The notes under the pieces are model-generated. The model did not search any database and was not told the DNA's origin. It saw nothing but the letters and a program-made list of their open reading frames with translations. A program made the translations under genes and the position numbers. Shown piece by piece: positions 13,603 to 61,009 of a DNA stretch of 64,000 nucleotides; position 1 is the stretch's first letter, and each line of letters starts with the position of its first letter. This DNA comes from Hysterangium stoloniferum (Eukaryota > Basidiomycota > Agaricomycetes > Hysterangiales > Hysterangiaceae). The DNA lies in NCBI GenBank assembly GCA_015178975.1, contig WHVD01000282.1:1-64000 (forward strand), read 5' to 3'.

Positions 13603-14669
13603 TTGGTAATGATCCCACACACTGAGTGCCTCCACCTGAGACATGATGGTGTTTCTCAGCAGCATGCTATTCCTGCCCCTGGACCATTTCTCTTTGCCCC
13701 TCCTGCCAATCCTCTTACTAACAATCAGCAGGATCCATTTGCTATTACTGGATCATCACTTAATATATATGGTCCTGCCAATCCTCTGCCTATCAATCAG
13801 CAGGATCCATTTGCTATTGCTGGATCATCACATAATGTAGATGGTCCTGCCAATCCTCTGTCTATCAATCAGCAAAATCCATTTGCTATTACTGGATCAT
13901 CATATAATATAGATGGTCCTGCCAATCCTCTGTCTATCAATCAGCAGAATCCATTTGCTATTGCTGGATCATCATATAATATAGATGGTCCTGCCCTATC
14001 AATCAGCAGAATCCATTTTCTATTGCTGGATCATCACATAATATAGATGGTCCTGTTCTTACTCCTGGCACTGTTATAGCTAATATATGTGCACAATTGG
14101 CAGATGGACCACAATCTACTGCATTACAGCATCCTGTTACAGTGGGCAGAAGAGCATTCACTGCTTTACAAGTTCAGGCAGCTGCCCTTCCATTACAACA
14201 GGCACCCTCCCAGAATCCTCAGATTATTCCTGCTTTCCCTATCATACCTTTATATCATGTTCCTATTAATCCTATTGTTCCTGTACCAATGGATGAGGAT
14301 GCATTACCATTACCACATAATCCTGAGCATTCTGAACCTGTTCCACCACCTCCTGGACCCCCCTGGGCCTCTCCCCCTGGCCAGGTGTCCAATTGATGAG
14401 GACAATCCACAGCTACAGCCACATTATCTGGGAACAATGACTGTATTGTGTTAAAAATGCAATGCATTACATTGGATAGCAGATTGTGTTCACCATTCCT
14501 CTAATAACAATCTTCTTTTTGGAGGTTGTTGTCTATCTGGAAAGATCAGATTACCTATACTTGAAGATGTTCCTCAATCATTACATCATCTACTAGAGAA
14601 TCCTGAGGATGCATATTCTAAAGAGTTTTGTAAAAATATCTGGGCATATAATTCTGCTTTAGTATTTAC
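13603..14669 (+). pseudogene. Helitron Rep/helicase gene, N-terminal part
   Basis: A Pro/Asn/Gln-rich N-terminal region with five 24-residue repeats (13702-14054) leads through two frame changes into PQLQPHYLGTMTVLC, an in-frame TAA (14453), then KCNALHWIADCVHH, CCLSGKIRLPILEDVPQSLHHL and EFCKNIWAYNSALVFT. These are the zinc-binding and Helitron-like N domain phrases found before the Rep domain in basidiomycete Helitrons. The reading frame is cut at 14669 by the Copia insertion and continues at 17407 with SLGASMDRPLIDGEHGPCVF. The gene is broken by the stop, frameshifts and insertion. Confidence 0.75.
13702..14054 (+). repeat. 72-bp coding tandem repeat (4.9 units)
   Basis: Units start at 13702, 13774, 13846, 13918 and 13990 and encode PANPL-(x)5-QQ(D/N)PFAI(T/A)GSS-(x)3-DG, 24 residues each. 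The fifth unit has lost about 7 bp, which shifts the frame. Part of the Helitron N-terminal region. Confidence 0.85.
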
Positions 14670-14892
14670 TGTTGGAATGTATACTGTACATCATGAACAA
14701 TGGATTCGAAGATCAGCATCTATTTTTAGGATACATGATTGTAGATACACGAAAGGACATGTCATCCCCTTGTTCCACATATGGTCATTATTCACTGCAC
14801 AATATTTAAAATTTGTGGTCACACCATCTACACCTCAGTCCACTATATGCTAATACAAGACTGAGATATATACTAGAGTTGCATTTTTAACA
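14670..14892 (+). repeat. 5' LTR of Copia copy 2
   Basis: 223 bp, TGTTGGAATG...TTTTTAACA. Contains the hairpin half-sites CCTCAGTCCACTATAT and CAAGACTGAG near 14830-14860. Confidence 0.88.
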
Positions 14893-14971
14893 GGTTATGC
14901 CCTGACTCATCTGTATAAGTTGACTATACCTTGTGATGAATTAAAAATTGCGACTTCATTCTCTATTTTAC

Positions 14972-17113
14972 ATGGCTTCCTCTATAACAACATCTACAGA
15001 CGACCTTGCTCCATCTATCACAGCACTCTGCACCAACATAGTTTACTCTGGGCCGAAGCTAGACAAACTCCAGTCCAACTATCAACTATGGCTTCATGCT
15101 GCCACTTTATTCCTCACTCTCACTGGTTTCCAGGGCTCTGCCAAGGGACTTGTCCCTCAGCCAGGCCTTGACTGCCCTCATGCTCAGGCCAACTGGGACA
15201 GTAACAATTCCCTTTCTGCTGCTCTTATTGCATCCACCCTTGAGGCATCAGAATGGGAGTACATTGACTTTGACCTTGGGGTGAAAGCCTGTTGGGATGC
15301 TTTACAACTTTGCCACAAGAGTGAGGGACACATCCAACAGGTCCAATGACTGCAGAATGCTCTACTCACTCAATTTTCCCACAGCACACCTCTACCCACA
15401 ACTGCTGAAACCATCTGCACTATGGTTGACTATGCCTATGAACGAAATTTCCCACGACCTCTTCAAATGCATTGCTCTTCTCAATGTTTTGGGCATGGAC
15501 TTCCAACACCTCCATTCTATCATCACCCACAACATTACCCAATCCATCAAGTCCAGCTCAACTCTGCCGATACAGCTCAATGGCAACAGGGTTACCTTGA
15601 TGAACTTGCTTCTCTCAAAGCTATGGGAGTCTACAAATTAGTTCCCTGATCTGATGTCCCACAGGGCTGTAAAATATGCAAGGGTCGACCTGTCTTTCAG
15701 ATTAAACAGGATGAGACAGGCAAGGTGACCCAATGGAAAGTATGCCTGGTTTTCAAGGGGTTTGAACAAATCTACAACAAAGATTATAATAAAACAAGCT
15801 CATCAACACCATGCATGGAATCTTGGAGGATCTTGCTACATATCGCTGCTCCCCTAGGATGGGATGTCCAGCAAATCGATATCAAGATAGCATTCCTATA
15901 TGGCATCCTCCCTGAGAATGAGACACAGTATATGGAACAACCAGCCAGTTTCAAAGAGCCTGGCAAAGAGAACTGGGTATGGATGTTAAGGTGAGGTATT
16001 TATGGCATGAAACAGAGTGGATTATGGAATCAAACAATGAATGAACAAATGATCTCCTGGGGTTTTACAAGACTTGGCTGTGAATCATGTATCTATTACC
16101 ACAAAACTTTCACTGGGATCATCATAGTGACTGTTCATGTCAATGATTTCCTCTCCATTGCAAGTTCTTTTGCAGAAAATAAGCATTTCAAGGAACAAAT
16201 AAGCAAAGTCTGGACTTTCTCTGACCTTGGGAATGTGTATTTTGTAGTTGGTATCACTGTCGAGTGAGACTGTCCCAACAAGTCTGTTTATTTATCCCAG
16301 ATCACCTTTATTGACAAGATCATTTGACAATTTGGCCAAACCAATGCTTCCATTGCATCCACACCCATGGACCATAGCTCAAAGCTTTGACGAAGCAATC
16401 ACATAACTTCTTCCGAAACTGAACTTGACACCCTGTTGAAACTCCCCTACAGGTCTTTAGTGGGTTGTCTACTTTATCTAGCCATCTCAACCCATCCCGA
16501 CATTTCCTATGCTGGTCAACAACTCTCTCAATATCTTGACTGTTACTCCATGCCCCACTGGCATGCTGCCATTCATGTTGTTTGTTATTTAAAGGGCACC
16601 TGAGGACTTCACTTACACCTAGGTGGTGCCAATGCAATTAATCTACTACGATACACTGACTCTGATTCGGCCAGTTGTCTTGACACTCATCATAGCATAG
16701 GTCGTTATGCCTTCACCTTGGGTTTTGGCATTATCTCTTGGACTTCTAGAAAACAAAAAACAGTTGCAGCATCCTCCTGTGAGGATGAATATATTGTGGC
16801 ATTCAAAGCCACCAAGGAAGGCAGGCAGTTGGCTTTGTACACTATTTACAGGCCTCCAATTTCCTCCCTCAGCTCCTACTGTAAAACTCTCCTTTGTGAC
16901 AACAATGCCATCATCACACTTTCTGAGGACCCACTCTTATGCTCTTGGGTCAAACACATTGATATCAAATACTATTTTCTTAGGGAGTGTGTCTTAGCAG
17001 GAGGCTTTACCTTAAGCTATGTCAACACCAAAGATAACCTCACTGATATCTTTACCAAGGCCCTGGACACCTCAAACTTTTCCTGTCTTCACCCCTTCCT
17101 CGGTCTCATCTAA
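14972..17113 (+). pseudogene. Copia polyprotein, gag joined to RT-RNase H, dead
   Basis: Gag (14972-15470: MASSITTSTDDLAPSI, SGPKLDKLQSNYQLWLHAA, GVKACWDALQLC) is followed after a deletion at about 15540 by the RT thumb-side start QWQQGYLDELASLKAMGVYKLVP. RT blocks include LGWDVQQIDIKIAFLYGIL, GIYGMKQSG and the active-site block TVHVNDFLSIAS (16139-16147), where the first catalytic Asp is Asn. RNase H covers 16700-17113 (KTVAASSCEDEYI, LCDNNAII, HIDIKYYFLRE). There are at least eight stops or frameshifts (15647, 15993, 16266, 16326 and others). Zinc knuckle, protease and integrase are missing. Confidence 0.85.
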
Positions 17114-17193
17114 CCTGATTTCCATGCAAGGAGGAGCACATATTGTTTTTCCTAAGGAGGAGGCCATTAACATTTGTCCATGCTGAGGTGGAG

Positions 17194-17401
17194 TGTTGGA
17201 ATGTATACATCATGAACAATGGATTCAAAGATTAGTATCTATTTTTAGGACACATGATCATAGATACACGAAAGGACATGTCATCCCTTTGTATTATTCC
17301 CCCATGATATTTAAACTTCATGGTCATGCCATCTACACCTCAATCCATTTATAGACTAATATGAGACTGAGATACATATATACTAGAGTTGCATTTTTAC
17401 A
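17194..17401 (+). repeat. 3' LTR of Copia copy 2
   Basis: Begins TGTTGGAATGTATACATC after the purine-rich GCTGAGGTGGAG (17182-17193). Ends at 17401 before target duplication TTTAC. Shows several small deletions relative to the 5' LTR, so the insertion is old. Confidence 0.85.
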
Positions 17402-18300
17402 TTTACTTCCCTGGGTGCCTCAATGGACAGGCCATTGATTGATGGGGAGCATGGTCCTTGTGTCTTTAAGCTCCATGGGGAACTTAGACATAATCATGGT
17501 GCTCTCATTCCTAATGAGGTTCAGGCACCTTCCTAGTGCTCAGCTCTACTTTTATGAAACAGATGCTGCTTTAGAGCATAGGTATGCATGTAACCAGGAC
17601 AAAAGAATCAATGCTACAACTCTTTCTGGGTTACAGGATATGATGTTAAAATGTAACCCTTTTGTTCACATCTATAAACAGGCCATGACATGTCTGAGAG
17701 ACCAACCAATCACTCCTCAGCTCCAGGTCAGGCTAACATATAAGGCTCATACAGATCCAAGGCAATACAACATTCCAACAGGGGATGAATTGGCAGTCAT
17801 CCTCCCAGGGGATGGTACTTCTACTGACAGAAAGGACATTGTGCTTAATTATCAGGGGTGGAGGATTTAGAAGAATCTTTGAAACTGATCCTTTATATGC
17901 CCCACTCCATTATGTGCTATTCTTTCCAAGAGGAGAGCAAGGTTGGAGCTGGATATTCACTATGCAAATGAACCACTCCCTGCTGAGATAGCCCCAGCCC
18001 CAGAAACTATTGAAGAGATTGCTCCAGAGCCAGAAGTCTTTGAACCAGCTCGTGAGGACATAGTATCTGACTTGCCAGAGGTAGTAATCCCTCAACCTGA
18101 AGTGGTTCCCCAAGTTGTACCTCTCCCACCTGAGCAAATAGATATTCCAGGTTGATGATGCTATGCCACCTCCTGAGCCAGCTATGGAGCAGGATGAGGT
18201 GCAGGGAATTACTGAAGAACTTGAAACTGAACAAGTGACAGAGGATAGGCAGAAGAAAATGCAGACAAAAGTCTCCCAGATAAAGTATTATTCATATTGA
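17402..18300 (+). pseudogene. Helitron gene, middle part (Helitron-like N domain)
   Basis: Continues the frame interrupted at 14669: SLGASMDRPLIDGEHGPCVFKL, HGELRHNHGALIPNEVQAP, AQLYFYETDAALEHRYACNQ (17439-17870), YNIPTGDELAVILPGDG, then after a frame change RRIFETDPLYAPLHYVLFFPRGEQGW (about 17865-17945). A Glu/Pro-rich linker (17943-18240) and KVSQIKYYSY follow. These phrases are the standard order in Helitron Rep/helicase proteins just before the Rep catalytic HUH region. Frameshifts make it non-functional. Confidence 0.8.
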
Positions 18301-37799: not shown

Positions 37800-39381
37800 C
37801 AGTGAACCAAAAAAGGGTCTGGATGTTTGGTGAAATTGGAAAGAGGGGTTCACAGCTCCAGAAATAAAATAGATCAAAATCAGAAGTAATCAGAAGTAAT
37901 CAAAAGTAAGAGGTATACATCTGACCTATATGATGACATAAGCATGACATCATAGCTTTCCCCATCAGGAGAGTAAAAAATGATCAATGGACATGGTGCA
38001 TCCAGACACTTGTTTTGCTCTGTCAACTGATATATGAAACTCAGCTAAGGTTCATATGACTGTGGGAGTTTCTGGTTAGGTTTAACAAGGTCATGTGACC
38101 ACATGTTTAAATAATATATTTATATAAACCTTTGCCTCATTTCACCTTCTCACCACATTATGAAGAAGCACTCTGCTGAAACAAGACTCTCTGTCATTTC
38201 CCTTCTCCAGGAAGGTCACTCCTGCAGAACAATTGCTTCTAAAATTCATATTGGGCACTCTACAGTATCAGAAATTCACTCCCAACTCCCTGGTCCACTT
38301 CCAACACCTTTCAGAGGTTGTCCTCCCAAGCTCTTACCCCAGGATCATCACCACCTGGCTTGTTCTATCATCCATGGCAGGTTGATAATGCCTCCCAGGT
38401 CAAGTCCCACCTCTCCCTCAATGTCTGCACACAGACAATTCACAATGCATTGAAGAAAGAGAATTTGAAGCTGTGGTGATGGCCAAAAGACCCCCTCTTG
38501 CCTCTTGACACATCAAGGCTCAATATGAGTTTGCTCTCAAGTACCAGAATTGGACTGAGGAGGGCTGATTTAGGGTTATCTTCTCAGATGAGACCAAAAT
38601 CAATCATTTGGGCTCTGATGGGAGGTTGTGGGTGTGGAAAAGACCAGGTTCTGCACTCACTCAGCAGCATATCAATGGAACTATCAAATTTGGAGGGGGA
38701 ATCTGATGATTTGGAGATGCATGACAGCACATGGTGTGGGGTACATGTACAAGGTAGATGGGAGGATGGATGGGGAGATGTTCAGGGATATATTGGAGGA
38801 CTATATCTTCAAAACAATGGAGTATTATGGGATGGACAGCAAAAGGTTTGTCTTCCAAGAGGACAATGACCCTAAACATACTTGCAAGTTGGCCAAGGAT
38901 TGGTTCAAGGACCATCAGGTGGAGGTTTTAGACTGTCCTGCACAGTCTTCTCCAGACCTGAATCCAGTAGGGCACTTATGTATGGTGGGAGTTGAAGAGA
39001 AGGCTTGGAATATACCCTGAGGCACCTAAGAGCATGTTGGAGCTCTGGGAGAGGGTGGAGATGGAATGGGAGGGCATTCCAAGGGAGGAATGCCTTGAAT
39101 TGATCAAGAGCATGCCTAGAAGGGTTTCTGTAGTGCTAAAGGCCAAGGAGGGATACACTAAATACTGAAACAGGTAAAAACTGGTAGTTAATTACAAGAG
39201 TGAAAAAAGTATCCAGATACACCATGTCCATTGTTCATTTTTTACTCCCCTGATAAGGAAAGCTATGATGTCATGCTTATGTCATCATATAGGTCAGATG
39301 TATACCTCTTACTTCTGATTTTTATCTATTTTATTTCTGGATTTGTGAACTTCTCTTTCCAATTTCACCAAACATCCGGAC
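37800..39381 (+). mobile_element. Tc1/mariner element, subfamily B, right end lost
   Basis: Left terminal repeat CAGTGAACCAAAAAAGG starts at 37800 after TA. The element parallels 57348-59602 to near its right end (CACCAAACATCCGGA at 39366-39380), where a Gypsy LTR (39382) replaces the last ~20 bp of the terminal repeat. The missing repeat end is not found on the far side of that LTR. Confidence 0.8.
38160..39168 (+). pseudogene. Tc1 transposase, subfamily B, dead
   Basis: Starts MKKHSAETRLSVISLLQEGHS and follows the frame of the copy at 57697-59362, with stops and frameshifts at about 38340, 38507, 38567, 38705 and 38945. First Asp block IFSDETKINHLGSDG is retained. The C-terminus ELKRRLGIYPEAPKSMLELW...GYTKY is readable at 38990-39168. 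Confidence 0.85.
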
Positions 39382-53465: not shown

Positions 53466-53750
53466 ATTTTTAGCCACACAATGGGACTGCTATCCCTTGT
53501 GCCACTCGTATTGTCTCTACTATCTCCATTGTTCTTTTGATATATATTAGTCGTGCTTCCTATCGTACTAAACCTCAGTCCGTTATACACTACCATTATA
53601 CGAGACTGAGGTGAGCAGCTCTTTAATATTAATGCCTAAATATTTATACTAATAATGTATTAGCTACAATATTTAGGTACTTAATTTAGTCCGTTATACA
53701 CTACCATTATACGAGACTGAGCTACAATATTTAGGTCTTGCTTTCTAACA

Positions 53751-53763
53751 GGTTATGGGCCTT
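53751..53763 (+). promoter_or_regulatory. Primer-binding site of Copia copy 1
   Basis: GGTTATGGGCCTT directly after the LTR; complementary to the initiator tRNA-Met anticodon stem-loop as in the gag-only element. Confidence 0.75.
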
Positions 53764-56700
53764 TGCTTTTGAGCAAGATTATTTTTTTTTGAAAACCGAT
53801 GACTACCCAAACTTCCACGGATGCTCTTGTGCTGTCTATTACTCTCATCCGTACCAACATTAGCTACACGGGGCCCAAACTCAATAAACTTAAATCAAAC
53901 TATCACCCTTGGCTCCGTGCTGCTGACCTTTTTATTACACTCACCGGACTTTCTGGCTATGTTGATGGTACAGTCCCGGAACCTACTGATACTGAACCTC
54001 ATGCCAGGGCTAACTGGCTGGCCAACAATTCTCTGGCTGCTGCTCTCATTATCTCCACTGTGGAGACTTCTGAGCAAGAATACCTTGACCACAAATTAGG
54101 TGCCCAGGCCTGTTAGGAAGTTATCCGCAACCGCCACCAGAGTGAGGGACCCATTCGCCAGGTTCAATTACTACAGGAAGCCCTTACAACTCGTTGTGCC
54201 AGAACTACTCCCCTGCCTGTCACAGCTGAGAAGATCTGTTCTATGATTGACTGGGCCTACGAAATGGGTGACATTTCTAAGGACCTTCTCAAATGTATTG
54301 CCCTCTTAGGTTCTCTTGGCAATGACTTTGGAAATGTACGGTCCATTATCACTCGCGACATTTCTGCCTCCACCGACTCTACCCCCTTTACATCAACTCA
54401 ACTTCGTGTTTATCTCGATAATGAGCAGAACCTCATTAACTCTGATAAGGTCACTTCTCCCGATTCAGTCGCCTTGTTTGCCCAACAGTCTTCGAAGTCC
54501 AGTGCCGTTATCTGCTCTAACTGCAAGCGCCATTTCCACGAGGTGGAGTATTGTATCCGCCCTGGTGGGGGCATGGCTGAGAAATCCCTTGATGAGTCCA
54601 AACAAGCTCGTCGCCTTGCTCGTCACCCGAAAACAGGGAGCTCTACTACCACACCCACTCCTGTTGTTCCTGCCTCTAGAGCACAGAAATTTCCTGTGAA
54701 GTTACAGGGTGCTGATGGTCGTATCTATGTCGTCAATATGGATTCCTCCGATTTTTCTTCCTCGGAAAGCCCTGCTGCCAACTTGGCCATCTTCTCATCC
54801 CCCACTCCTCCCTCTCAACCACTTTCGACCCCTTCTTCTTCCCTCACTTTAGCACACGATGTGATGGAGTATGATGGCTGGATCGTCATTGAGGAGGAGT
54901 TAACAACGAATTTAGATTGGTCCAAGTATAGTGTTCCGTCTACCATGACAACCACCCATACCTCTGATATCTCACCGGTCTCTCAGTCCACTCGCACACC
55001 TATTTCAAATTCACTCCCATTCTGGCTAGATAGTGGTGCATCGGTCCATGTTTCCCCAGATCGTACTGATTTCATGACCTTGAGAGCTGTTACCCCTCGA
55101 TCGGTCAAAGGGGTGGGTGGTTCCTCAATCTGGGCAATAGGTATCGGCGATATCAAACTTCGCATAGGCCGGGGAACACACTTAATCTTACGGGATGTTC
55201 TTTATATACCAGATGCCACGGTGCGGTTGATTTCAATTCACTGCCTTACAAAGGATTCCAATGTTATTGCACACTTTGATGATACTTCCTGTTGGCTTAG
55301 TTCCAAATCATCTGGCATAGTTCTTGCTCGGGGCAACTTACTTTCACAGAAAAGCCTCTATTCCTTGAACATCTATCCAGCCCAGGCTGAACACATTCTT
55401 GTCACCCACCACACTCCTACACTTGATACTTGGCATCGTCGTCTTGCCCATGCGAATTATCAGTCTATTCATGACATGTTCAATAGTGGCCTTCTCAAAG
55501 GTATGACGCCAGCCTCCTTCACGGCTCATCCTAAATGTGATTCCTGTATCCTTGGAAAACAGAGTAAAACACCTGTTCCTAAGAAGCGTGAGGAAGGAGT
55601 GGGCCATCAGGCAACAAGGAAGCTGGAAAAAGTATGGGTGGATTTATCAGGGCCGAATCATGTCACTTCACGTAGTGGATTCAACTATGCTATGAATATT
55701 GTAGACGACTACTCTAGTTTCACCTGGACAATCCTATTAAACTAAAAAGCGATGCCTTTGTCCAACTTCAAAATTGGGAATGTGCTTGTGAAGTTGAAAC
55801 TGGACTCAAAGTTGGAGTATACCGAACGGACAATGGCAAACTCAAAAGCCACGACATGGCAAACTGGTTAGCCTCACGAGGAACAGACCACCAATATACT
55901 GCCCCATATACATCAGCGCATAATGGGCGTGTGGAATGACTACACTGTACCTTAATGGCAAAAGCAAGAACCATGCGTATCTATGCAGGTTTGCCTGTGT
56001 CTCTATGGGACGAATTTTACCTTACTGCCACTCACCTACATGTCAAAACAACTACCAAATCCCTTGAAGACAAAACACCTTGGGAACTGTGGTATGGTCA
56101 TCCCCCAGATTATTCCTATCTGCATGAAATTGGATGTCGGGCTTTCGTTTGGATTCAGAACAGAACAAATCCTAAAATTTATGAACGGTCAATCGAGTGT
56201 ATTCTTGTCGGTTATGACAGTAAATCGAAAACATACAGGTGCTATGATCCGAAAACTAAACAAATTTATAGTTCTTATCATGTTCGATTTCTGGAAAGCC
56301 ATGATGGACACCTCTGTACCTCCACAATCGAACCAAATATCGACATGACCAATAGTCCTGGTACACCACTTGAGCCCACCTCCTCTGATATATATTCCCC
56401 CCCTCTATGGACTGAGGTTCCCACTGATCTTCCCCTAATATTCCCACATGTAGAACCACCAGTCAATGACCCTGTCCACGACCCACCTCCTCGACGTTCA
56501 AGTCGTACCACTGCTGGACAGCCAGTTTCAACAGCAAGACTTGACAACGCTGTTCAGGCCTCTAAAGACAGTGCTGAGAGGTTACGATTGCAACGACAGG
56601 ATCATCTGCACACCATTGCTGATTTACATCGCACTATTCCAGATCCTCCTATGCCGACTATGGATAATGATGCATTGCAACAGGCTCTTTCATCAATCCA

Positions 56701-57755
56701 ATTCGCATTAGACTTACCGGGTCTAGATCTTAACTTAGCAACTACCTCTGATACCCTTGGTGTCAATCCGTTAACATGTAATGATGAACCACAGACATGG
56801 GCCGAAGCTCTCCAGTCAGGTGATGCCCTACGATGGCGAGCTGGATTCCAGGAAGAGCTCGATTCCCTCAAGACCATGGCGGTCTACAAACTTGTCCCTC
56901 GTGCCGAGGTTCCTCCAGGATGTAAAATACGCAAGGGGTGGCCAGTTTTCCGAATTAAAAGGGATGAATCTGGCAAAGCAATACGGTGGCAGGTGTGATT
57001 AGTTTTCAAAGGTTTTGAACACGTTTATGGTAAAGATTACCATAAAATGATGTCCCCTACCGCACGAATGGAATCTTGGCATATTTTGCTCCATATTGCT
57101 GCCACTCTCGGTTGGGACGTGCAGCAAATTGATATTAAGACCGCTTTCCTTTATGGCTTGCTCCCTGAGGATGAAATACAGTTTATGGAACAACCCGAAG
57201 GATTTCTGGAACCCAGAAAGGAAGATTATATTTGGATGTTACTCCGAGGTCTATATGGAATGAAACAGAGTGGTCGTATCTGGAATAAAACGATGAACGA
57301 ACAGATGCTGGCTTGGGGCTTTACCCGACTGACACCAGAATCTTGTACAGTGACCCAAAAAAGCGTCCGGATGTTTGGTGAAATTGGAAAGATGGGTTTG
57401 CAGCTCTAGAAATAAAATAGATAAAATTCTGAATAAATAAGAGGTAAGAGGTATACATCTGACCTACATGATGACATAAGCATGACATCATAGCTTTCCT
57501 TATCAGGGAAGTAGGAAATGAACAATGGACATGGTGCATCCGGACATTTTTTTTGCTCTGTCAACTGATACATGAAACTCAATAAGGTTCATATAACTGT
57601 GGGAATTTCTGGTTAGGTTCAACAATGTCATGTGACCACATGTTTAAATAACACATTTACATGAACCTTTGCCTCAATTTACCCCCCCACCACATGATGT
57701 AGAAGCACTCTACTGAAACAAGGCTCTCTGTCATTTCTCTTCTCCAGGAAGGTCA

Positions 57756-57999
57756 TGTTAGATTATATAATACCAACCATTGTTCCAACTGGGACCATAT
57801 GGTGTACAGCTCTGAGTCCAGTGTGTATATGATCTAATAGGAATGGCACTTAGGGTTATATCCTTAAGTACAGTGTAAGACCAAACCTATCCAAGGTCAG
57901 ATGGTGTAGTGGTTAACACCTTCGTTATGTAATCAAGAGATCCTGGGTTCAATCCCCAGTCTGGCTATTCATTTTCTACATTACTTATGTTTTCTAACA
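57756..57999 (+). repeat. 5' LTR of TRIM
   Basis: 244 bp; TATAATACC near its start, tRNA-like 57895-57967, TTTT at 57972-57975. Confidence 0.93.
57895..57967 (+). tRNA. tRNA-like sequence in TRIM 5' LTR (Thr-UGU-like, pseudo)
   Basis: Folds as a 73-nt cloverleaf. Acceptor GGTCAGA/TCTGGCT (7 bp, two G-U), D-stem GTGT/ACAC with loop AGTGGTTA, T-arm CTGGG-TTCAATC-CCCAG (perfect), discriminator A. A box TGGTGTAGTGG and B box GGTTCAATCC fit the Pol III consensus. Anticodon loop TATGTAA puts TGT at 34-36, but position 33 is A instead of T and the stem has C-A and T-T mismatches, so it is unlikely to be a working tRNA. No intron or encoded CCA. A TTTT Pol III terminator follows 5 nt downstream. Confidence 0.75.
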
Positions 58000-58012
58000 T
58001 GGTAGCAACTCC
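58000..58012 (+). promoter_or_regulatory. Primer-binding site of TRIM
   Basis: TGGTAGCAACTCC abuts the LTR. TGGTAGCA is complementary to the 3' end (TGCTACCA) of initiator tRNA-Met-like tRNAs. This differs from the half-tRNA site used by the Copia and gag-only elements here. Confidence 0.65.
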
Positions 58013-58156
58013 AAGGTTAACTTGGTTTGGCTGTATTTGTGTGTATGGTATAGTGGACAAGTCTGGACGAAAAAGAGCCAGAGAGGACCTATACTGGCAT
58101 ATGATATAGTTAATGCCCAAGATCGAACCTGGAGTGTAGAATGAACAATGCTGGCA

Positions 58157-58167
58157 TTAAGGGGGTG
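58157..58167 (+). promoter_or_regulatory. Polypurine tract of TRIM
   Basis: TTAAGGGGGTG directly before the 3' LTR. Confidence 0.6.
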
Positions 58168-58411
58168 TGTTAGATTATATAATACCAACCATTGTTCCAA
58201 CTGGGACCATATGGTGTACAGCTCTGAGTCCAGTGTGTATATGATCTAATAGGAATGGCACTTAGGGTTATATCCTTAAGTACAGTGTAAGACCAAACCT
58301 ATCCAAGGTCAGATGGTGTAGTGGTTAACACCTTCGTTATGTAATCGAGAGATCCTGGGTTCAATCCCCAGTCTGGCTATTCATTTTCTACATTACTTAT
58401 GTTTTCTAACA
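58168..58411 (+). repeat. 3' LTR of TRIM
   Basis: Identical to the 5' LTR except G for A in AATCGAGAG (58341 region), a CpG transition. Confidence 0.93.
58307..58379 (+). tRNA. tRNA-like sequence in TRIM 3' LTR
   Basis: Same as 57895-57967 but with C-G restored at position 29-41 of the anticodon stem, so this is the better-folding copy. Confidence 0.75.
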
Positions 58412-60660
58412 GGTCACTCCTGCAGAACAATTGCTTTTAAACTTCATATTGGGCACTCTACAGTATTAGAAATTCGCTCCCAACTCCCTGGTCCACTTCC
58501 AACACCTTCCAGAGGTTGTCCTCCCAAACTCTCCCCCAGGGATCATCACCACCTGGCTCGTTCTATCACCCCTGGACAGGTTGATAATGCCTCCCAAGCC
58601 AAGTCCCACCTCTCCCTCAATGTCTGCACACAGACAATTAGAAATGCATTGAAGAAAGAGAATTTGAAGGCTGTGGTGAAGGCCAAAAGACCTCTTCTTG
58701 CCTGTCGACACATCAAGGCTCAATATGAGTTTGCTATCAAGTACCAGCATTGGACTGAGGAGGACTGGTTTAGGGTTATCTTCTCAGATGAGACCAAAAT
58801 CAATTGTTTGGGCTCTGATGGGAGGTTGTGGGTATGGAAAAGACCAGGTTCTGCACTCACTCAGCAGCATATCAATGGAACTATCAAATTTGGAGGGGGG
58901 AGTCTAATGATTTGGGGATGTATGACAGCACATGGTGTGGGGTACATGTGCAAGATAGATGGGAGGATGGATGGGGAGATGTACAAGGACATATTGGAGG
59001 ACTATATCTTCAAAACAGTGGAGTATTATGGGATGGACAGGGAAAGGTTTGTCTTCCAGCAGGACAATGACCCTAAACATACTTGCAAGTTGGCCAAGGA
59101 TTGGTTCAAGGACCATCAGGTGGAGGTTTTAGACTGGCCTGCACAGTCTCCAGACCTGAATCCAATAGAACACTTAGGGTGGGAGTTGAAGAGAAGGCTT
59201 GGAACATACCCTGAGGCACCCAAGAGCATATTGGAGCTCTGGGAGAGAGTGGAGGTGGAATGGGAGGGTATTCCAAGGGATAAATGCCTTGAATTGATCG
59301 AGAGCATGCCTAGAAGGGTTGCTGCAGTACTAAAGGCCAAGGGGGGGTACACTAAATACTGAAACTGGTAAAAACTAGTAATTAATTACAAGAGCAAAAA
59401 AAGTGTCCGGATGCACCATGTCCATTATTAATTTCCTACTTTCCTGATAAGGAAAGTTGTGATGTCATGCTTATGTCATCATGTAGGTCAGATGTATACC
59501 TCTTACCTCTGATTTATTCAGAATTGTATCTATTTTATTTCTGGAGCTGTAAACCCATCTTTCCAATTTCACCAAACATCCGGACGCTTTTTTGGGTCAC
59601 TGTATTTACTACAGACGCAGTGCCACCGGTATCATTATCGCTGCCGTGCATGTCAACAATTTCCTTTCCATTGCTAGCACCGCTATGGAAAATGAAACCT
59701 TCAAGCGGGAGATGCGTCAGGTATGGACTATTTCTGACCTTGGTACTGCCCGTTTCATTGTAGGAATTGCTGTTGAATGGGATCGACCTAACAAGTCTGT
59801 CTTTCTTTCTCAAACTGCACTCATTGATAAAATTATACGACAATTCGGACAAACTACAGCCTCCACTGTTTCTACCCCTATGGCTCACAGTCTTAAACTC
59901 CGCCGTTTTGATCACATGCCCTTATCCAAAATTGAACTGACTGACCTGCTTAAATTGCCCTATCGCTCTTTAGTCGGGTGCCTGCTTTACCTGGCCATTT
60001 CTACGCGCCCTGATATCTCTCATACTGTTCAACAGCTGTCCCAATTTCTTGACAGCTATTCGACTCTACATTGGGCTGCAGCAATTCAGGTTGTTCGTTA
60101 TTTAAAGGGCACCAGGAACCTTAAGTTACACTTGGGTTGTTCAAGGGACCTCAACCTTACTGGCTACACAGATTCTGATTGGCTAATTGCCTTGATACCC
60201 GCCATAGTATTAGCGGCTATGCCTTTACTTTAGGTTCCGGCATTATCTCATGGGGCACCAAGAAGCAGAAAACTGTTGCAGCCTCATCATGTGAGGCCGA
60301 ATATGTCGCTGCTTTCGAGACAGTCAAAGAGGGCACTTGGATCCGTGCCTTACTCAATGGCATTTGCTTCCCTTGTACGACCTCCACAACCATTTTTTGT
60401 GATAACAATGCGGCTATAAATTTATCTGAAGATCCACTACTCCATTCCCGTGTCAAACACATCGATATTAAATATTACTTCCTCCGCGAACGTGTACACG
60501 CAGGTGATTTCACTCTTCAATATGTCAACACGAAGGATAATCTCGCTGACATTTTTACCAAACCCCTTGAACCATCCAAATTCATACGCCTTCGTGGATT
60601 CTTGGGGCTGTGCTAACTTAACCCTCCCATGCGTGAGGAGGAGCTGATGTTGTCCACGCT

Positions 60661-60669
60661 GAGGAGGAG
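60661..60669 (+). promoter_or_regulatory. Polypurine tract of Copia copy 1
   Basis: GAGGAGGAG directly before the 3' LTR. Confidence 0.7.
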
Positions 60670-61009
60670 TGTTGGAATTCGAGCATCATGAACAACATCA
60701 AACTCCGAGACAAATAGCACGGCTATTTTTAGCCACACAATGGGACTGCTATCCCTTGTGCCACTCGTATTGTCTCTACTATCTCCATTGTTCTTTTGAT
60801 ATATATTAGTCGTGCTTCCTATCGTACTAAACCTCAGTCCGTTATACACTACCGTTATACGAGACTGAGGTGAGCAGCTCTTTAATATTAATGCCTAAAT
60901 ATTTATACTAATAATGTATTAGCTACAATATTTAGGTACTTAATTTAGTCCGTTATACACTACCGTTATACAAGACTGAGCTACAATATTTAGGTCTTGC
61001 TTTCTAACA
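60670..61009 (+). repeat. 3' LTR of Copia copy 1
   Basis: 340 bp, uninterrupted. Hairpin modules at about 60832-60870 and 60952-60980. Confidence 0.95.

Follow-up and report, generated by a model that had tools for sequence, protein, structure and literature searches.

Introduction

TRIMs with tRNA-derived LTRs were named Helenus by Kojima (2024), and their hosts, as given in the accessible part of that paper, include Agaricomycetes (PMC10886601). In the same part, the tRNA-like sequence was judged to be non-functional as a tRNA, and Kojima's idea that it serves as a Pol III promoter rests on the conservation of the boxes (PMC10886601). The element analysed here lies at 57756-58411 of a 64-kb stretch of DNA, hereafter the window, and is almost certainly a Helenus-type TRIM. 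The original prediction had supposed that tRNA-bearing TRIMs might have been mentioned elsewhere and that novelty had to be checked. This caution was right, since the kind is already in print as Helenus, in what is accessible of PMC10886601. Known since 2024, it gains here a well-preserved new example and not a new kind. No second report of tRNA-bearing TRIMs was found by title or abstract start, and PMC10886601 was the only one for Helenus. Furthermore, the accessible part of PMC9674265 held nothing on TRIMs, and megB1 was rejected as a match because it is an Alu-like element in the literature.

Structure of the element

The features, in window coordinates, are the following.

53466-61009, plus strand: Copia element around the Tc1-like element; repeats 53466-53750 and 60725-61009, 99%; outer limits of the LTRs provisional
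57346-59604, plus strand: Tc1/mariner-like element entered by the TRIM; TIRs 57346-57559 and 59391-59604, 95%
57756-58411: whole TRIM, 656 bp, two LTRs and 168 bp between them
57751-57755, no strand: left target-site duplication, GGTCA
57756-57999, plus strand: 5' LTR, 244 bp, TGTTAG...TAACA
57764-57771, plus strand: TATA-like word TATATAAT in U3, a possible Pol II promoter that counts against the Pol III reading
57895-57967, plus strand: tRNA-like sequence of the 5' LTR; A box 57902-57912, B box 57946-57956
57972-57975, plus strand: TTTT, 4 nt 3' of this tRNA-like sequence, a possible weak Pol III terminator, not above shuffled tails
58000-58013, plus strand: primer binding site (PBS), 14-nt complement of the tRNA-iMet 3' end plus CCA
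58028-58116, plus strand: domain common to two other repeat families (85-92%), core hairpin within 58044-58102
58114-58139, plus strand: 26-nt segment identical to the internal region of family D (L119)
58159-58167, plus strand: polypurine tract (PPT) AAGGGGGTG, by reading, directly 5' of 58168
58168-58411, plus strand: 3' LTR, 1 base apart from the 5' LTR
58307-58379, plus strand: tRNA-like sequence of the 3' LTR
58412-58416, no strand: right target-site duplication, GGTCA

The span 57756-58411 is a short LTR element without proteins of its own (TRIM). Repeat alignment and reading confirmed the 656-bp TRIM, the 244-bp LTRs, the GGTCA duplication, the primer site and the purine tract that had been predicted; the predicted lack of an ORF also held, the longest ORF overlapping the TRIM being 68 aa. 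Five anatomical features of Helenus were tested, namely the lack of proteins, the tRNA-like sequence in the LTR, the PBS, the PPT and the 5-bp duplication, and all five were present. Another TTTT begins at LTR position 235.

Copies, insertion history and age

The genome searched comprised 111 Mb, and the element of the window is called family A. The full 656-bp span was covered by at least 14 genome matches (best 40 of 418 candidates scored), and the 40 matches listed in the LTR search, a lower bound, were 98-100% identical. The exact 13-nt PBS occurred at 28 genome sites and at none for the reversed control: 18 were in family A, 2 in an insertion in a Copia gene (L109, see below), 6 in family D (five fetched, one on C157 assigned by prefix only) and 2 elsewhere (L110, L116). 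LTR-PBS junctions of family A numbered at least 18. The 20-nt D-arm pattern with up to two mismatches gave 332 sites, which may include family B, and none when reversed; exact D-arm (A-box) sites numbered at least 100, all of those listed being exact. When 20 D-arm sites outside the best LTR matches were inspected, all 20 lay in family A LTRs (18 whole, 2 partial). We collected 53 different complete LTRs together with their flanks, leaving out partial copies; 36 of them were solo, 9 stood before a PBS and 8 after a PPT. A perfect 5-bp duplication flanked 31 of the 36 solo LTRs and 7 of the 8 full-length copies with flanks; among the remaining 5 solo LTRs, two had a one-base mismatch in the duplication and one had a ragged end. 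Family A is thus multi-copy with target-site duplications, against the single copy without relatives that would have refuted the original prediction.

When the flanks of the TRIM were joined at one GGTCA, they gave an unbroken match to window 37808-38611 (89%, 806 columns) and another to a second place on C410 (L021; 97% over 433). These two places are empty sites in other Tc1-like copies. The arrangement of the TRIM is therefore not due to chance, given the 14 full-span matches, the 5-bp duplications in the copies and the uninterrupted pre-insertion site. The Tc1-like element has TIRs of 214 bp and a DDE_3 ORF at 58649-59362, and the ORFs on either side of it carry Copia-type domains (gag_pre-integrs, SH3_retrovirus and RVT_2). 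The empty sites, together with the position of the Tc1-like element between Copia ORFs framed by repeats, indicated that the TRIM entered the Tc1-like element, itself inside the Copia element. Named matches of the window Copia protein came from six Agaricomycetes (Panaeolus, Sphaerobolus, Agrocybe, Coprinellus, Rhodofomes and Amanita) at 36-54% identity; the top-ranking named matches, at 49%, 49% and 46%, were incomplete proteins assigned to a metagenome bin labelled 'Chlamydiales bacterium', and plants contributed four weak matches. Going by the six Agaricomycetes, the genome is probably that of an Agaricomycete. As a separate observation, remains of a second Copia-like element lie at about 14667 to 17430 of the window; its LTR-like ends start with TGTTGGAATGTATAC and its primer site with GGTTATG.

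The LTR pairs of 6 of the 8 full-length copies were identical, and the others were 1 (the window copy) and 4 columns apart. The sole difference in the window copy, an A/G at LTR position 180 over 244 nt, is a CpG transition. CpG transitions are the fastest change in methylated DNA. The true age may therefore be less than the approximately 2 million years that one difference per 244 bp gives at a substitution rate of 1.05e-9, the value in the accessible part of PMC5689174. The original prediction had argued that mobility was recent because the LTRs differ at one base; recency stood, given the six identical pairs, whereas the argument itself was weakened by the nature of that base.

Related families and the shared hairpin

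Family B has an LTR of 128 bp and an internal region of 157 bp (TSD GGGAC, L086), and five tandem pairs with a 283-285-bp unit occurred among the 90 hairpin places. Family C consists of 244-245-bp units (TGTTAG...TAACA) with TSDs GAGTG (L082) and TTTAC (L080) and the hairpin inside; by reading it has the A- and B-box motifs of another tRNA-like sequence, and ARAGORN gave no tRNA call on the family C units. Family D has an LTR of 206 bp, an internal region of 109 bp, the TSD CCAAC (L119) and a tRNA-like sequence read as Thr. Two side observations belong here. At C520:240900-242300 (L073), a tandem array of family B has LTRs of about 66 bp without A and B boxes and with the tRNA-like 3' part kept. 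Many 94-95-nt tRNA-like genes were also seen, a number of them read by ARAGORN with the anticodon TTA (stop), possibly forming another repeat family; in several places they were paired about 370-450 bp apart, with a T5 stretch 3' where read. They were located at C112 (0.91-1.22 Mb), C68, C98, C290, C410 and C526 (several of L044-L068, L114, L115, L120 and L121), and we take them to resemble intron-bearing tRNA-Lys.

Families A and B had the tRNA-like sequence, the hairpin and the PPT side in common (69% over 284 columns). Families A and D had the LTR end and the PBS in common (74% over 74 columns) plus the 26-nt block (100%), and a two-sequence comparison of B with D found nothing shared at E 0.1. 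The simplest reading would be that family A is a mosaic; a loss in B or D would explain the pattern as well. The hairpin core, about 45 nt long, is part of the internal region in both A and B and also occurs within C, with 90 exact genome matches and none when reversed. In 29 different sequences its stems were nearly constant and its loop was variable in length; there was no covariation support for the hairpin, because the stems hardly vary. Of 200 shuffles, 199 folded less well than the window copy (z -3.15). We read the hairpin as a candidate packaging signal.

Primer tRNA and candidate helper

The 3'-end pattern of the initiator tRNA-Met had 3 matches in the genome and 0 in the control, and one of them (L117) was called Met-CAT by ARAGORN. 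The genome tRNA-iMet ends CCTGGAGTTGCTA, and with CCA added its complement begins TGGTAGCAACTCCAGG. The PBS of family A matched this 3' end perfectly over 14 nt, and that of family D over 13 nt. Matches to the anticodon arm of the same tRNA were found in family B (15 nt), a hybrid element on C58 described below (15), a Copia element on C388 (14) and the window Copia (11, with its PBS at 53751). Both primer modes are reported for fungal Helenus in the accessible part of PMC10886601.

An autonomous element sharing the 3'-end PBS of family A was not found at any of the 28 exact 13-mer sites, and the L110 and L116 sites had no ORF above 135 aa in the 2 kb read. The genome pattern TCNANNCNNNNGAGTTGCTA gave 1 match vs 4 in the control. 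Three PBS-like sites with a single mismatch (L071, L072 and L074) were rejected, as all three represent the same coding sequence, which encodes an integrase zinc domain (PF17921 in L071). As an observation in its own right, L110 (C101:735400-737400) holds a short TGTTGG...CCAACA unit adjoining an iMet 3'-end primer site, with no ORF above 89 aa in 2 kb, and may be a further miniature element.

The young and abundant Copia of C388 is the best candidate for a partner. Its LTRs are 305 bp long and 99.7% identical, start with TGTTAG and end with AACA, with the TSD CAATC; the best 40 of 108 candidates were all 97-98% identical to a 182-bp stretch of its RT gene. It was considered as a helper because of its TRIM-like LTR ends, 5-bp duplication and iMet priming, although the position of its PBS differs. 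In a tapeworm TRIM paper, a helper was argued to need the same PBS (accessible part of PMC4558846), an argument that would disfavour the C388 Copia with its anticodon-arm PBS. In the pieces compared (1.6 and 2.7 kb), it lacked the hairpin, its LTRs were not similar to those of the TRIM families, and its sole match to these families was the PBS of family B.

Insertions bounded by primer binding sites

At C146:597300-600300 (L109), a Copia RT gene (RVT_2, 4.8e-62) is interrupted by a family A unit in the order PBS, internal part, PPT, one LTR and a second PBS, with apparently another LTR nested in the internal part. The joined flanks were matched across the junction by all 40 scored Copia relatives, 39 of them over the whole query, indicating that the second PBS came with the insertion. 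Judging from this order, L109 is likely an inserted reverse-transcription intermediate without completed plus-strand transfer, with a recombined one-LTR circle as the alternative. At C58:157586-161865 (L123, L130), a family B internal-LTR unit stands between two PBS copies within a 4.3-kb Copia-like element, whose LTRs are 186 bp long with 2 differences and which has the TSD AATAC twice; no ORF above 125 aa was present in its last 3.7 kb. By its make-up, this element is read as a TRIM-Copia hybrid.

Taken jointly, a tentative and rather doubtful reading would be that several tRNA-bearing TRIM families parasitise the same Copia particles, with the hairpin as a packaging or dimerisation signal, and that TRIM-Copia template switching builds mosaics and leaves PBS-internal-LTR-PBS fossils of interrupted reverse transcription. 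As part of the same tentative reading, family A would have its primer site and 26-nt block from D, and its hairpin and tRNA-like sequence from B.

The tRNA-like sequence and the production of RNA

ARAGORN made one tRNA call of 73 nt in each LTR. Rfam RF00005 (cut-off 29 bits) scored 43.9 and 49 bits over the full model length (E 4.9e-6 and 1.9e-7 for 64 kb), and these two sequences were the only matches above any Rfam family cut-off in the window. The A box has the consensus TRGYNNARNGG and the B box GGTTCRANNCC, and both boxes fitted exactly. The predicted 73-nt tRNA-like sequence with A and B boxes in each LTR was thus recovered, with scores well above the cut-off and not at background. As RNA, the 73-mers had only a weak folding advantage over shuffles (z -1.23 and -1.40; 23 and 17 of 200 shuffles did equally well), and in the fold predicted for the 5' LTR copy the anticodon stem did not form in tRNA style; because of this weak folding, the tRNA claim is carried by the covariance-model score. 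A 5S-type element was rejected, as the window had tRNA matches only and no 5S match over the cut-off.

Between family A and family B (L086), the acceptor, D and T arms differed at 4 of 51 positions and the anticodon and variable part at 11 of 22 (Fisher p = 1.3e-4); the comparison covers a single pair of related sequences, and the boundaries between the parts were drawn once the alignment had been seen. The promoter arms are thus conserved between two families and the anticodon part is not, in contrast to bases varying freely between copies. This pattern fits a retained Pol III promoter whose anticodon part would be free to change, and the Pol III-type promoter sequence that the original prediction placed in each LTR was supported as anatomy by the boxes and the arm conservation. 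Within family A, minor cells made up 0.009 of the tRNA-like sequence vs 0.0077 of U3, i.e. the former was not less variable, in a sample where 18 of 53 LTRs had been picked by the exact A-box pattern and which was therefore biased towards no variation in that region. This within-family test of selection is weak, because the family is too young and has too little divergence. The placement of T4 was rejected as proof of Pol III termination, since T4 occurred in 92, 82 and 53% of shuffled tails (families A, B and D); its absence in between was not significant either (P(0) 0.62, 0.88 and 0.44), the family B row being unreliable throughout because its LTR was wrongly delimited.

The tRNA-like sequence is probably the TRIM's own switch for RNA production. 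Pol III would start near the 5' end of the tRNA-like sequence in the 5' LTR, continue past the weak T4 stretches, traverse the internal region and end in the 3' LTR, and the resulting RNA would have repeated ends (R) made of the tRNA-like sequence plus a short tail. Copia-element proteins would then package this RNA, initiator tRNA-Met would prime the cDNA, and Copia integrase would insert it. We regard it as likely that the element is a Helenus-type TRIM with Pol III RNA from the LTR tRNA-like sequence, packaged and integrated by Copia proteins and primed by tRNA-iMet; the Pol III step, considered separately, appears probable. This explanation builds on the observed TRIM anatomy, multi-copy insertion with 5-bp duplications, iMet PBS and conservation of the arms with the A and B boxes. 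The T4 just 3' of the 5' tRNA-like sequence counts against it, as it could stop Pol III before the PBS.

That same T4, at 4 nt from the tRNA-like sequence, would favour a different source of RNA, in which Pol II transcribes the genomic RNA from U3 and the tRNA-like sequence serves TFIIIC binding, for insulation or against silencing, or acts as a handle for packaging. The word TATATAAT at 57764 in U3 and the TATATAAG of the Copia-type LTR at C58 are in keeping with this, and so is the conservation of the acceptor, D and T arms, which extends beyond the boxes alone. However, the family B LTR is without this TATA-like word, and AT-rich DNA commonly contains a single word of this kind. Moreover, Cassandra, the only validated relative, reportedly starts and stops in its 5S parts, according to the accessible part of PMC10886601. 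We consider Pol II transcription from U3 unlikely, though worth weighing.

A working tRNA gene dispersed by retrotransposition is very improbable. ARAGORN did read Thr (TGT) in 44 of the 54 family A tRNA-like sequences, but 2 were read as Tyr (one of them the 5' LTR copy at 57895-57967) and 8 had a 4-base anticodon. In tRNAs, position 33 is near-universally U, and in family A it is A; furthermore, in the 53 copies, 31 of 35 minor cells of the tRNA-like sequence fell in the anticodon stem, at two CpG sites, all of them CpG transitions. With U33 lost and the anticodon stem decaying, a functional tRNA gene was rejected, and the A at position 33 and the anticodon-stem changes make a translation-competent tRNA unlikely. 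Accordingly, the predicted spreading of tRNA-like genes stood as regards the sequence but failed as regards genes. Finally, copies of a plain tRNA SINE that landed by chance in an unrelated LTR element are extremely improbable, for although a SINE insertion is Kojima's proposed origin of such LTRs (accessible part of PMC10886601), all 20 D-arm-pattern places lay in family A LTR sequence (18 whole, 2 partial) and 31 of 36 whole solo LTRs, partial copies excluded, had integrase-like 5-bp duplications.

Comparison with known systems

The TRIM shares its promoter type with the tRNA-derived SINEs (SINE2), which have a tRNA-derived Pol III-type promoter as well, but SINEs are without LTRs, PBS, PPT and integrase-type duplications. 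Ajax of nemerteans is, as far as its description was accessible, also a TRIM with a small-RNA promoter and 5-bp duplications; it differs in being 5S-derived and in having an animal host. Cassandra of plants is likewise a TRIM with a Pol III-type promoter in its LTRs. Its tandem LTR-internal arrays, described in the accessible part of PMC7215508, have their counterpart here in family B. However, Cassandra is 5S rRNA-derived, unlike the element in our window, where no 5S sequence scored over the cut-off.

The closest system is the fungal branch of Helenus, with which, on the accessible part of its description, the element agrees in TRIM size, in the tRNA-derived sequence that brings an A and a B box into both LTRs, in the PBS and PPT, in the 5-bp duplications, in the initiator tRNA-Met primer and in the solo LTRs. 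Copia is the likely helper in that description; here the C388 Copia is a candidate with similar LTR ends, duplication length and primer tRNA but an anticodon-arm PBS. This locus thus provides a well-preserved and recently active Helenus family outside rusts, together with its primer tRNA, its nested history and, from the same genome, a candidate helper. The boxes kept and the anticodon arm lost between families add one comparison to the Pol III promoter idea, and the conserved hairpin makes it testable how a helper recognises a TRIM without protein or LTR similarity. The accessible part of PMC10886601 describes Helenus without the cross-family hairpin, the apparent mosaic make-up and the hybrid and PBS-bounded insertions seen here.
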